This document shows positions 26,705 to 29,943 of a stretch of 64,000 nt of DNA, one piece after another; the first letter of the stretch is position 1, and each line of letters opens with the position of its first letter. The notes under the pieces were generated by a model that ran no database searches, was not told the origin of the DNA, and saw only the letters and a list, made by a program, of their open reading frames with translations. Source of the stretch: Mangrovibacterium lignilyticum (GTDB taxonomy: Bacteria > Bacteroidota > Bacteroidia > Bacteroidales > Prolixibacteraceae). The translations under genes were made by a program, and so were the position numbers. The DNA is taken from contig NZ_WKLH01000004.1 of NCBI RefSeq assembly GCF_010882175.1, forward strand, positions 11,425 through 75,424, given 5' to 3'.

Positions 26705-26805
26705 TTTCACGGGAAGCGAAGTGGAACTTCTATTCAGGGGAGATCGCAACATCTCCTTCCTTTTTCGAGCAAATAATTATCTTTGGTTAAAATGAATCAT
26801 TCTTG

Positions 26806-27888
26806 ATGCAATTTACTTTACACTCCAATAATCGTCTGACTATTTTGCTCCATGCCTTGGGCTGGTGCATTATCCTGTTCATTCCCCGTTATTTGATAAC
26901 AACTTACGGTGGAAGTCAGGGAAGTCATTTCCTGCACCAGTTTTATTTCAATGCGGCAGTGTACGGTACGATTTTCTATTTGAACTACCTGTGGCTGGTG
27001 CCGAAATATTTCATAGAAGATAAGAAAATCGCCTATTTCCTATTAGCTGCTATTGTCGTAGTTGGGTTGTATTTCCTGATGCATTATGTGAATGAATTTA
27101 TTTTTCATGAGCCGGAGCACGAAGCAAAAATGGCCAGATTGATGGCTGAGCTGAATCAGGAGAAAGGTGAGTCCCGCCCGCCAATCGAGCAGTTTAAGAT
27201 TTACAATTATTTCTCAACTGCCGCTTTGATAACCGGTTTTTCATTAGGATTAGGTGTCATACAGCAATTGTCGAAGAATGAGCAAAAGCGAAAAGAACTG
27301 GAGAAGGAAAAACTGAACTCCGAGTTGGCCTTCCTGAAAAGCCAGGTTAGCCCGCATTTCTTCTTCAATACACTGAATAATATTTATTCACTCATCGAAA
27401 TTGACACCGAGGAGGCACAGGCTGCTGTCCTGAGATTGTCGAAGTTAATGCGCTATTTGCTGTATGATTCGGACAACGGGAATTCAAAGTTGATTGAGGA
27501 AATCAACTTCATGAACAATTATATCGACCTGATGAAATTGCGTGTTAGCAATAAGGTTGACCTTGTTGTGAACATGCCCGAGCAAGTTCCCGATATCAGC
27601 ATTCCCCCTTTGCTGTTTGTCGCGTTTATTGAAAATGCGTTTAAGCACGGGGTTAGTTACCGGGAGCATTCGTTCATTCATATCAATATGACTATTGATG
27701 ACAATGTGCTCCGGTTTGAGACTCAAAATAGTCTTGGTAAAAGCGGAGGTGAAGGAGAATCAAAGCATTCCGGAATCGGTCTGGAGAACGTGAAGAAACG
27801 ACTGACCCTGCTGTATCCCGATAAGCATGATCTGCGGATTAGTCGGACCAATGATACCTTTAAAGTGAAACTGGAAATTGAGATTTAA
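26806..27888 (+). CDS. LytS-type sensor histidine kinase
   Basis: A 360-residue membrane kinase. Four helices are predicted (about 11-32, 47-68, 76-96 and 135-153), followed by a coiled coil and the His_kinase domain: SQVSPHFFFNTLNN with phosphoacceptor H184 and the NLIEE/ENAFKHG N-box at about 270, then SGIGLENVKKRL as the G box. There is no large extracellular sensor, so it may sense membrane state or the pump itself. It forms a pair with the LytTR regulator 11 bp downstream. ATG 26806 is preferred to the adjacent TTG at 26803. Confidence 0.9.
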   Translation: MQFTLHSNNRLTILLHALGWCIILFIPRYLITTYGGSQGSHFLHQFYFNAAVYGTIFYLNYLWLVPKYFIEDKKIAYFLLAAIVVVGLYFLMHYVNEFIFHEPEHEAKMARLMAELNQEKGESRPPIEQFKIYNYFSTAALITGFSLGLGVIQQLSKNEQKRKELEKEKLNSELAFLKSQVSPHFFFNTLNNIYSLIEIDTEEAQAAVLRLSKLMRYLLYDSDNGNSKLIEEINFMNNYIDLMKLRVSNKVDLVVNMPEQVPDISIPPLLFVAFIENAFKHGVSYREHSFIHINMTIDDNVLRFETQNSLGKSGGEGESKHSGIGLENVKKRLTLLYPDKHDLRISRTNDTFKVKLEIEI

Positions 27889-27899
27889 AAAGGCTGACT

Positions 27900-28616
27900 A
27901 TGAAAATCCGCACAATAGCGATCGACGATGAGCCGCTGGCTCTAACCCTTTTATCCGGCTACGTGGAGAAAACACCTTTCCTTGAACTGGCAGGTTCGTT
28001 TGACAATCCGCTGGATGCCATGGAATTTTTGTCGGAGAATGAGGTCGATTTGATTATTCTCGATATTCAGATGCCTGATTTAACCGGAATTGAATTTGCC
28101 CGGGTTCAGGAGACAAAGGCTAAACTAATTTTCACCACAGCCTACGAGAAGTACGCCTTGGAAGGCTTTAAGCTGAATGCAATCGACTATTTGTTGAAAC
28201 CATACAGCTACCAGGAATTCCTAACGGCCGTTAACAAAGCAAAAAAACAGCTCGATTTGGAGCAGGGTGCTGCCACCACGATGGAAGCCAATAACCAGTT
28301 CCTTTTCCTGAAATCGGAGTATAAAATTCGCCGGATTAACTTCAACGACATTTTATACATCGAGGGAATGAAGGACTATGTGAAAGTTTACCTGCTTCAC
28401 GAAGAAAAGCCGGTTCTTTCAATCAGTTCGGTCAAGGCAATCGAAGAAAAGTTGCCGGCCGGTAATTTTATGCGGGTACACCGTTCGTTTATCGTCAACC
28501 TCGATAAAATTGAAGTGATTGAGCGCAGCCGGATCGTGTTTGGAAAAACCTATATTCCGGTTAGCGAGCAATACAAGGAGAAGTTCCAGAATTACCTGAA
28601 CCGGAATTTTTTGTGA
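27900..28616 (+). CDS. LytTR-family response regulator
   Basis: A 238-residue regulator: receiver domain 1-120 with acidic pocket D9/D10 and phosphoacceptor D55 (LIILDIQMPDLTG), then a linker, and a LytTR DNA-binding domain from about 138 (FLFLKSEYKIRRINFNDILYIEG, VHRSFIVNLDKIEVIE). LytTR domains bind direct repeats on one face of the DNA. Two sets of repeats with about 21-bp spacing flank this operon, at its promoter (21343) and directly after this gene (28658), making it the prime candidate binder. Confidence 0.93.
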   Translation: MKIRTIAIDDEPLALTLLSGYVEKTPFLELAGSFDNPLDAMEFLSENEVDLIILDIQMPDLTGIEFARVQETKAKLIFTTAYEKYALEGFKLNAIDYLLKPYSYQEFLTAVNKAKKQLDLEQGAATTMEANNQFLFLKSEYKIRRINFNDILYIEGMKDYVKVYLLHEEKPVLSISSVKAIEEKLPAGNFMRVHRSFIVNLDKIEVIERSRIVFGKTYIPVSEQYKEKFQNYLNRNFL

Positions 28617-28657
28617 TGGCGCGGGGCCGAAGCCTCCAATACACGGCTACCAGCCAA

Positions 28658-28945
28658 TCGCCCGCCGGGGATAGTCAATTTCCCCGATGTACTTAAGCCA
28701 ATCCCGCGGGGGATAATCAATTTCCCCAATGTACTTAAGACGATCCCTTTGGGGATAGCCTATTTCCCCCATGTACGCGGCTTGTTCCCCAAGGGGATTG
28801 TGGCTTTCCCCCATGTACTTTTCATTTTCCCCGATGTACCCGACTATTTCCCCAAGGGGATAATCACCGTCCCCAATGGACCAGGCATTCTCCCCGGGAG
28901 GATTGTTGTTCTCCCTCGGGGGTTTGCCGCTATCCCCGATGTTTG
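28658..28945 (+). repeat. Array of fourteen 21-bp units between the LytTR gene and fmt
   Basis: A C-run core begins at 28661, 28682, 28703, 28724, 28745, 28766, 28787, 28808, 28829, 28850, 28871, 28892, 28913 and 28934: exactly 21 bp apart every time, with no indel over 273 bp. Two unit classes roughly alternate: A units read TTTCCCCNATGTAC, B units read TTCCCCAAGGGGAT and are palindromic. Spacer bases between the cores vary freely. The period equals two helical turns, so all cores face one side of the DNA. The last units overlap the fmt promoter. A frame in phase with the LytTR gene stays open across the array, but lacks a start and a stop of its own. Confidence 0.9.
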
Positions 28946-28956
28946 TACTATCTTTG
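28923..28956 (+). promoter_or_regulatory. Promoter of fmt
   Basis: TTTG (28923-28926), a 22-nt spacer and TATCTTTG (28949-28956), a perfect -7 box. The start would be near 28963, 18 nt before the ATG at 28981. The final array unit lies between the two boxes, so a protein bound there could affect fmt. Confidence 0.65.
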
Positions 28957-28980
28957 CACCAAAATTATTCAACAGACGTT

Positions 28981-29943
28981 ATGACCGGAAAAGATTTACG
29001 GATTGTATTTATGGGAACGCCCGATTTTGCCGTGGCCAGTTTGAAAGCATTGGTTGATGGCGGTTATACGATTGCAGGTGTCATTACCGCACCCGATAAA
29101 CCCGCTGGCCGGGGGCGCCAGTTGCAACAATCGGCAGTGAAACAATATGCCGTTGAGCAAGGGCTTCATGTGATGCAACCCGAAAAGTTGAAAAATCCGG
29201 AATTTATCAGCGAATTGGAAGCGTTGAAAGCCGATTTGCAGGTGATTGTTGCCTTCCGAATGTTGCCCGAAGTGGTTTGGCGCATGCCTCGTTTGGGCAC
29301 CTTCAACCTACACGGATCGTTGTTGCCGCAGTATCGCGGAGCTGCCCCCTTGAACTGGGCGGTGATGAACGGCGACAAAGAAACAGGTGTCACAACTTTC
29401 CTGCTTTCGCACGAAATTGATACCGGAGCCATTCTTTTTCGCGAGAAAATTACCATTGGCGACGACGATAATGTGGGTGACATTCATGACCGGCTGATGG
29501 AAATTGGCGCCACGCTTGTTGTTAAAACGGTTGACGCTTTAGCCGCCGGAAACTTTCAGGCAATTGAGCAGGATGACATGGGAGCTGAAACTTTGAAGCC
29601 GGCTCCGAAAATATTTAAAGACGATTGTAAAATTGACTGGACAAAACCGGCTGTTGCAGTTCGGAACCAGATTCGGGGATTGTCTCCGTATCCGGCAGCC
29701 TGGACCGAACTGATCGACGGGAAAGGGAAGGCGTTGGGATTGAAAATCTTTAAGGCTGAAATAGAACCCTTGAATGGAGCCGCACCGGGAACACTGGAGA
29801 CCGATGGTAAAACGTATCTCAAAATTGCGGCTTCGGATGGCTGGCTTGCGATTTCGGATTTGCAACTGTCGGGTAAAAAGCGGATGGCAACAGCCGATTT
29901 TCTTCGTGGCGTTCAGGATCCCGGTCAATTTAAAGTGCAATAA
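28981..29943 (+). CDS. fmt: Methionyl-tRNA formyltransferase
   Basis: A 320-residue enzyme that formylates initiator Met-tRNA using 10-formyl-tetrahydrofolate. The N-terminal domain starts LRIVFMGTPDFAVASL and carries HGSLLPQYRGAAPLNWAV with the catalytic His and, further on, VTTFLLSHEIDTGAI. The C-terminal OB-like domain (about 205-320) contains IRGLSPYPAAWTEL. The length is normal. Start 28981 is fixed by the promoter; the frame is open further upstream only because the array has no stops in it. No def gene is adjacent. Confidence 0.95.
   Translation: MTGKDLRIVFMGTPDFAVASLKALVDGGYTIAGVITAPDKPAGRGRQLQQSAVKQYAVEQGLHVMQPEKLKNPEFISELEALKADLQVIVAFRMLPEVVWRMPRLGTFNLHGSLLPQYRGAAPLNWAVMNGDKETGVTTFLLSHEIDTGAILFREKITIGDDDNVGDIHDRLMEIGATLVVKTVDALAAGNFQAIEQDDMGAETLKPAPKIFKDDCKIDWTKPAVAVRNQIRGLSPYPAAWTELIDGKGKALGLKIFKAEIEPLNGAAPGTLETDGKTYLKIAASDGWLAISDLQLSGKKRMATADFLRGVQDPGQFKVQ

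Follow-up and report, generated by a model that had tools for sequence, protein, structure and literature searches.

A phased 21-bp repeat array between a LytTR regulator gene and fmt in Mangrovibacterium lignilyticum, and similar arrays behind a lineage-limited gene family

Results

The window analysed here is a 64-kb stretch (64,000 nucleotides) of one contig of the M. lignilyticum genome. Its forward strand encodes a sensor histidine kinase (26803..27888; Pfam His_kinase), a LytTR response regulator (27900..28616; Pfam LytTR, E 2.9e-20, and Response_reg, E 3.5e-18) and the methionyl-tRNA formyltransferase fmt (28981..29943; Pfam Formyl_trans_N and Formyl_trans_C). A sequence-only reading had placed a repeat array directly behind a LytTR regulator gene ending at 28616, and the Pfam matches bear this out. 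The array lies on the same strand at 28658..28951, where periodicity and the alignment of its units resolve 14 units at exact 21-bp steps without a single indel. Identity within the array is 0.447 at lag 21 and 0.615 at lag 42, and both values exceed 0.399, the highest value reached at any lag from 10 to 63 when 2000 first-order Markov sequences were simulated. The 14 phased, indel-free units described earlier are thus confirmed, although the array had been ended at 28945 and its last full unit runs to 28951. TRF reports a 42-bp unit at 28652-28776. This is the sole lag-21 array of the window at z >= 6.

The left half of the unit is C-rich in all 14 units, and CCC is invariant at unit columns 3-5 (14/14), as expected from the C-run cores that had been read at 28661 + 21n. 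TTTCCCC is exact in 6/14 units and TCCCC in 10/14. The right half defines two classes. In seven units it is mirror-like (class B; GGGGAT exact in 5): units 1 (28658..28678), 3 (28700..28720), 5 (28742..28762), 7 (28784..28804) and 10 (28847..28867), and the degenerate units 12 (28889..28909; GAGGAT) and 13 (28910..28930; GGGGTT). In the other seven it is TGTAC-like (class A; TGTAC exact in 5): units 2 (28679..28699), 4 (28721..28741), 6 (28763..28783), 8 (28805..28825) and 9 (28826..28846), and the degenerate units 11 (28868..28888; TGGAC) and 14 (28931..28951; TGTTTG). Exact half-site words are fewer than class assignments. Units 11-14 are degenerate, and the alternation given earlier (B A B A B A B A A B A B B A) is correct provided that these four units are assigned as they were then. 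A CRISPR array was considered and rejected; the match to CRISPR-DR57 is weak (19.2 bits against a gathering score of 39) and the flanking genes, by Pfam, are not cas genes.

An fmt promoter plausibly reaches into the last two units. The candidate, of Bacteroidota type, spans 28923..28956 on the forward strand, with TTTG at 28923-28926 and TATCTTTG at 28949-28956, the latter a TAnnTTTG box that we take to be the Bacteroidota promoter motif. TATCTTTG is also present upstream of fmt in two genomes of the same genus, G003 and G001. A sigma-70 consensus scan returned no promoter at this place.

A link between the array and the LytTR gene is not supported. In G003 and G001, whose LytTR orthologues are 90% and 86% identical, the gap before fmt is without an array. 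The corresponding gap of G025 does contain a 21-bp array, with words and core that differ from those of the window. Among 29 LytTR loci, from orthologues through homologues of ~45% identity and with the window's own locus excluded, a lag-21 array lies within 1 kb downstream in one (G025) and upstream in none; one of these loci, L028, has no downstream sequence. In G038 an array is found ~1.3 kb behind a LytTR gene, with another gene between. These data do not support the proposal that the array serves the LytTR gene before it as operator or by titration, and a LytTR link as a rule is rejected on the 29 loci. Across loci, arrays of this class are scattered without a link to LytTR genes, an outcome that the sequence-only reading had itself named as a refutation, and the one other array in the M. 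lignilyticum genome with the window's words likewise lies beside a different gene, described below. The window and G025 arrays, their words being unlike, may share the lytTR-fmt gap by coincidence. In G003 the same gap (L024 2205-2330) holds a 7-bp repeat, AAGTTTC and variants, in the place of the array; three such repeats make 21 bp.

Arrays with a 21-bp step form a wider class. When 1.69 Mb of sequence from 13 genomes was scanned for periodicity (lags 15-39, z >= 6), 23 lag-21 hits were obtained, 15 of which were without a covering frame of at least 150 codons. Counted in the same way, each other lag had at most 3 hits, so that outside long reading frames no period but 21 is clearly enriched. 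The scan is a non-random sample: the window, L053, L054 and L055 were chosen since an array was known there, so that three of the 15 hits (window, L053, L054) were preselected, and two more (L068, L216) are read as coding. At its z threshold, arrays that are short or diverged also escape detection, as do relatives with a 41-42-bp step that lie near some DUF6261 genes. The M. lignilyticum genome alone contributed 11 lag-21 hits in 0.469 Mb, nine read as intergenic arrays and two (L063, L068) lying in genes. No lag-21 hit was found in the 80-90 kb scanned from each of G003, G032, G014, G089, G093 and G298, and G062 and G117 gave one hit each (L205, within a 326-codon open frame, and L216), neither of which looks like an array.

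Cores are unlike between array families while the step is the same, and many cores are palindromic by profile. By eye, the geometry within the unit also varies from array to array as the 21-bp step stays constant. Some arrays share what ends or follows them. The palindrome GGTACTTCCGAAGTACC ends arrays in two genomes of different families (L053 3071-3087 and L058 7918-7934; 2/182 loci). A similar stretch, about CTGAAAGGCTTGTGGATAAAGGGATA, appears by eye behind arrays of different core in L112, L126, L113 and L101, and L126 and L169, although their arrays are unlike, share a stretch of 152 bases behind them at 97% identity. Arrays behind similar-looking lipoprotein genes in G038 and G401 had suggested that position is conserved independently of sequence; this was rejected, as homologues of the G401 lipoprotein (30 loci) had a lag-21 array at z >= 5 in 0/28 loci downstream and 0/30 upstream.

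The words of the window array led to a second array in the same genome. In a BLAST search of the genome at E < 1, the window array matched, besides itself, only two stretches (E 4.3e-4 and 0.034) of an array on another contig (G000:C8, about 686.9-687.1 kb). This array carries the two half-site words of the window in the same register, and it adjoins a gene for a 107-aa protein family, which we label A1. A motif search allowing up to one mismatch gave 22 matches, of which eight fall within the two arrays and 14 occur singly; a reversed-pattern control gave five. In profile comparisons, which leave out 12 named loci judged duplicates of genome-search loci, the A1-linked array was the nearest of 52 others to the window array (6.36; second best 5.14; all-pairs 99th percentile 12.07); by sequence profile the match is the nearest with a modest margin and is not extreme. 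There is no A1 gene beside the window array. In each of the three cases tried, the half-site words of an array pointed to other arrays of its genome.

A1 is lineage-limited. It is present in 22 of 120 genomes of the taxonomic family of M. lignilyticum and was found nowhere outside that family, the one positive among 296 phylum-wide genomes being the M. lignilyticum genome itself. A1 has no NCBIfam match at E <= 0.01, and a Pfam scan of three members gave one match, below the cut-off (E 0.033), and none to Y1_Tnp. The predicted structure consists of long helices (pLDDT 94) and has no PDB structural match at E <= 0.001.

A lag-21 array lies within 1 kb downstream of the A1 gene in 23/31 loci and upstream in none, and the same 31 loci gave no array at lags 16, 17, 19, 20, 22, 23, 25 and 26. 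In a set of 25 named loci from Sunxiuqinia, Draconibacterium, Maribellus, Mariniphaga and others, of which at least twelve are judged to come from the same genomes as the 120-genome search, 24 have an array, each downstream; the exception, L166, ends 45 bases past the match. The eight of 31 loci without an array within 1 kb are L107, L116, L119, L127, L129, L121, L122 and L123, of which L121 has only 39 bases downstream and L122 and L123 are partial matches. L116 is identical (100%) over 647 bases to L164, where a lag-21 array lies ~1.4 kb on, behind a second gene. This gene (L164 6361-7659), between the A1 gene and its array, encodes a 432-aa protein without a Pfam match, and DNA similarity suggests the same order of A1, 432-aa protein and array in L127 and L129. 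In many of the loci inspected a terminator-like stem with a T-run can be seen by eye between the A1 gene and the array; in L119 a transposase gene apparently stands right behind the terminator, also by eye.

A second gene family shows the opposite orientation. Lag-21 arrays lie upstream of DUF6261 genes in 10/27 loci and downstream in none, and the other lags tested gave one match only (lag 20, upstream). By eye, longer palindromes (TTGCCCAGNNTGGGCAA in L136) recur every 41-42 bp upstream of DUF6261 in L131, L136, L140 and L144.

Arrays of the A1 type are shared among related species and also have copies elsewhere in their own genomes. Cores are common to related species within an A1 subfamily (L106, L167 and L169; L100 and L102) and differ between subfamilies. 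Searches with two A1 arrays found copies in the array's own genome in both cases, two in G003 (80% and 79%) and two in G428 (88% and 71%). At E < 0.01 the only other genomes matched were G414 (E 5.3e-4) and G377 (E 3.1e-8), and the G377 match lies ~0.2 kb behind that genome's own A1 gene. The copies within a genome are intergenic and without an A1 gene in view; one in G003, for example, lies behind what looks by eye like a release factor 3 gene.

In orthologous A1 arrays, as distinct from the window's own, cores change less than spacers, significantly so in some pairs. With the core columns taken from a third array, the differences were 7/110 core against 21/121 spacer positions for L106/L167 (p 0.014), 15/90 against 44/99 for L124/L125 (p 4e-5) and 7/70 against 27/77 for L118/L126 (p 0.0004). 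Other orthologous pairs went in the same direction with p from 0.0017 to 0.52, depending on the pair and the columns chosen: L112/L126 gave p 0.036-0.11, and L112/L114 and L114/L126 gave p 0.48-0.52 under one definition of the columns. Three A1 subfamilies are represented, and some of the pairs are not independent of one another. Spacers change (0.14-0.45) to an extent comparable with third codon positions in the neighbouring A1 gene (0.16-0.55), and gap runs between orthologous arrays are 21 or 63. Two earlier versions of the comparison preceded this one. The first was biased, its columns coming from one of the compared arrays, and a version with three-way alignment (p 0.22, 0.039, 0.056, 0.4, 0.27 and 0.028), in which the L106 set looked misaligned, is superseded.

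Copies within a genome behave less uniformly, and cores were kept in one of four comparisons. In L115/L279 (G428) the differences were 2/90 core against 20/99 spacer positions, with columns from L115 itself and hence biased. Core retention was not seen in L100/L288 (15/130 core against 24/143 spacer), L115/L281 (31/90 against 30/99) and L100/L291 (47/126 against 63/142). Gap runs here include some that are not multiples of 21, namely 11 in L100/L288 and 2 and 5 in L100/L291. The sequence-only reading had held that conserved cores with free spacers point to a bound ligand and not to a plain minisatellite. Strict phase argues likewise. No orthologue of the window's own array was found, but the orthologous A1 arrays support this view: their cores change less than their spacers, although the difference reaches significance in only part of the pairs, and they differ by gap runs of 21 or 63.

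Discussion

We favour the view that the array is a helically phased DNA platform for a trans-acting DNA-binding dimer other than the neighbouring LytTR regulator, an explanation whose chances we put at about even. One dimer per unit would sit on each 21-bp site; a C-rich half-site with its mirror image would form a homodimer-like site, and one with TGTAC a hetero site. The hetero units (7/14 in the window array, 6/11 in L054) break self-complementarity but keep the half-site words. A step of 21 bp is two turns of B-DNA and would place all dimers on one face of the helix, where they could stack cooperatively into a filament. Because the geometry of the unit varies while the step is constant, the step seems to be set by stacking and not by the reading heads. 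At this site the filament would lie as a divider between the kinase-LytTR operon and fmt, whose promoter it could modulate by repression or insulation. The window array and the A1-linked array of the other contig would belong to one set, the former as a satellite, since the two half-site words and their register are common to both. A1 itself is unlikely to be the protein that reads the sequence, because it is well conserved (mean column identity 66%) while the cores differ between subfamilies.

That arrays with constant spacing and changing letters are scattered over genomes hints at a DNA-coating protein. They may represent a chromosomal element with an invariant 21-bp step and family-specific letters, consisting of a home copy behind the A1 operon and of intergenic satellites, the window array among them, and served by a co-evolving binder that could bridge or insulate loci. 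This wider picture is offered tentatively, as a possibility that falls short of probable. The home copy would be inherited with A1 among related species.

A REP-like origin is the likeliest of the alternatives. The array would then be a selfish or semi-domesticated palindrome, moved by an HUH (Y1) transposase and grown in 21-nt steps, without a host function. The REP/BIME definition is a 20-40-bp dispersed extragenic palindrome. Half of the window array's units (7/14) are palindromic in kind; one related array lies elsewhere in the M. lignilyticum genome, and copies of other arrays are dispersed within G003 and within G428. In one pair short flanks are copied as well: 39/60 positions on the left and 52/60 on the right are identical in L115/L279, with lower values (26/56 and 22/50) in L100/L288. 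Moreover, of 23 Y1_Tnp loci, 5 lie no more than about 1.5 kb from a lag-21 array, where 1.4 are expected by a rough estimate from the array density of the M. lignilyticum genome (P 0.011). The single Y1_Tnp match of that genome (L297) is one of the five, its lag-21 array lying at a distance of about 1.3 kb. In excerpts of PMC6006769, Y1 proteins of the Bacteroidetes subclass 2.6 are flanked by atypical structures with copies elsewhere. However, this one Y1_Tnp match faces nine arrays in 0.47 Mb. The two REP superfamilies are marked by GTAG or CGTC at a repeat end, according to excerpts of PMC3733652, whereas GTAG is absent from both strands of the 294-base window array and CGTC occurs once per strand. 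A REP-like origin also leaves the A1 linkage (23/31 and 24/25 loci) and the constrained cores unexplained. We regard it as rather unlikely by itself; it and the platform reading are not mutually exclusive.

That the LytTR regulator next to the array uses it, after all, as operator or for titration is improbable. Excerpts of PMC4847170 describe LytTR sites as two repeats of 9-11 nt with 11-13 nt between, so that the period, as had been claimed, is compatible with LytTR spacing. The G025 and G038 arrays described above can be counted in its favour, and at first look the genome has 63 LytTR-like candidates, so that another LytTR protein could bind. Against it stand the empty gaps of G003 and G001, the single array within 1 kb at 29 loci, the different words of the G025 array, and the recurrence of the window's words beside an A1 gene and not a LytTR gene. 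An RNA element, in which the transcript would form a string of hairpins, the half-sites making the stems and the spacers the loops, is quite improbable too. The region 28640-28960 does fold better than dinucleotide shuffles (z -3.6), and units 12-14 contain two terminator-like stems where 0.4 are expected, but palindromes lower the fold energy anyway, the second word does not pair with the C-rich half-site in half of the units, no Rfam family scored above its gathering score, and at many of the A1 loci inspected by eye a terminator-like stem and T-run precede the array. Since 21 bp is seven codons, a coding heptad repeat was also weighed. One forward frame (with xPxGI-like heptads) and one reverse frame are open across the window array, and an open frame spans 33/46 arrays, with the same 12 loci left out as in the profile comparison, a mild excess over the 27.5 (sd 2.3) seen after column shuffling. 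Yet 13/46 arrays are without an open frame, and once hits covered by frames of 150 codons are set aside, there are 15 hits for period 21 but 2, 3, 2 and 1 for periods 15, 18, 24 and 27, which leaves the coding explanation exceedingly unlikely. A neutral minisatellite phased by chance is scarcely more credible and very unlikely. Super-periods of 42 and 63 bp, with one of 105 bp by eye, point to segmental duplication, and some gap runs between same-genome copies (2, 5 and 11) are not multiples of 21; against this, 14 diverged units carry no indel, orthologous arrays differ by runs of 21 or 63 with cores constrained in several pairs, and the occurrence of the two half-site words in both orientations in L054 is hard to obtain by slippage alone.

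The proposed phased platform for a DNA-binding dimer has partial parallels among known systems. REP/BIME elements with Y1 (RAYT) proteins resemble it in being short extragenic palindromes with copies dispersed over the genome; they differ from it in that the arrays keep a strict 21-bp phase, the window array has no GTAG, and the home copy lies beside a gene family without a Y1_Tnp match in Pfam. LytTR operator sites, such as those of YpdB and HdrR, likewise have repeats about 21 bp apart (excerpts of PMC4847170 and PMC6193735). LytTR operators consist of two repeats upstream of a promoter, whereas the window has 14 units with palindromic or hetero cores, and the sister arrays lie mostly away from the LytTR genes tested. 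RemA is reported, in an excerpt of PMC8481266, to form an oligomeric ring on poorly conserved repetitive regions. It is alike in its repetitive DNA target; in the one regulatory region given there, it protects 7-bp regions that are 3 bp apart. BldC, in an excerpt of PMC5859096, binds direct repeats as cooperative multimers; the window array has palindromic half-sites. Judged by title and the opening of the abstract, none of the literature matches listed, from open-access literature exclusive of bioRxiv preprints, seemed to describe such arrays.

If the arrays keep their period and lose their letters, the conserved signal is the spacing and not the sequence. To our knowledge, this would be unusual for bacterial regulatory DNA. 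Such elements would then be hidden from ordinary motif or homology searches. The A1 family provides a handle, since its genes predict the place of an array, and in the three cases tried the half-site words of an array revealed more arrays in that genome. With this handle and the array words, the search for the binder becomes a direct matter of pull-down.

Two further observations concern the surroundings of the arrays. Some A1-array loci (L172, L159, L169, L181 and L167) lie beside restriction, Cas9 or other defence genes, and six of nine A1-neighbour proteins match PADLOC models; the nine were picked by eye and without a control set, and no claim of a defence island is made. In the window itself, a 237-bp tandem repeat of 2.4 copies (96% matches) occupies positions 1-577, from the start of the window.
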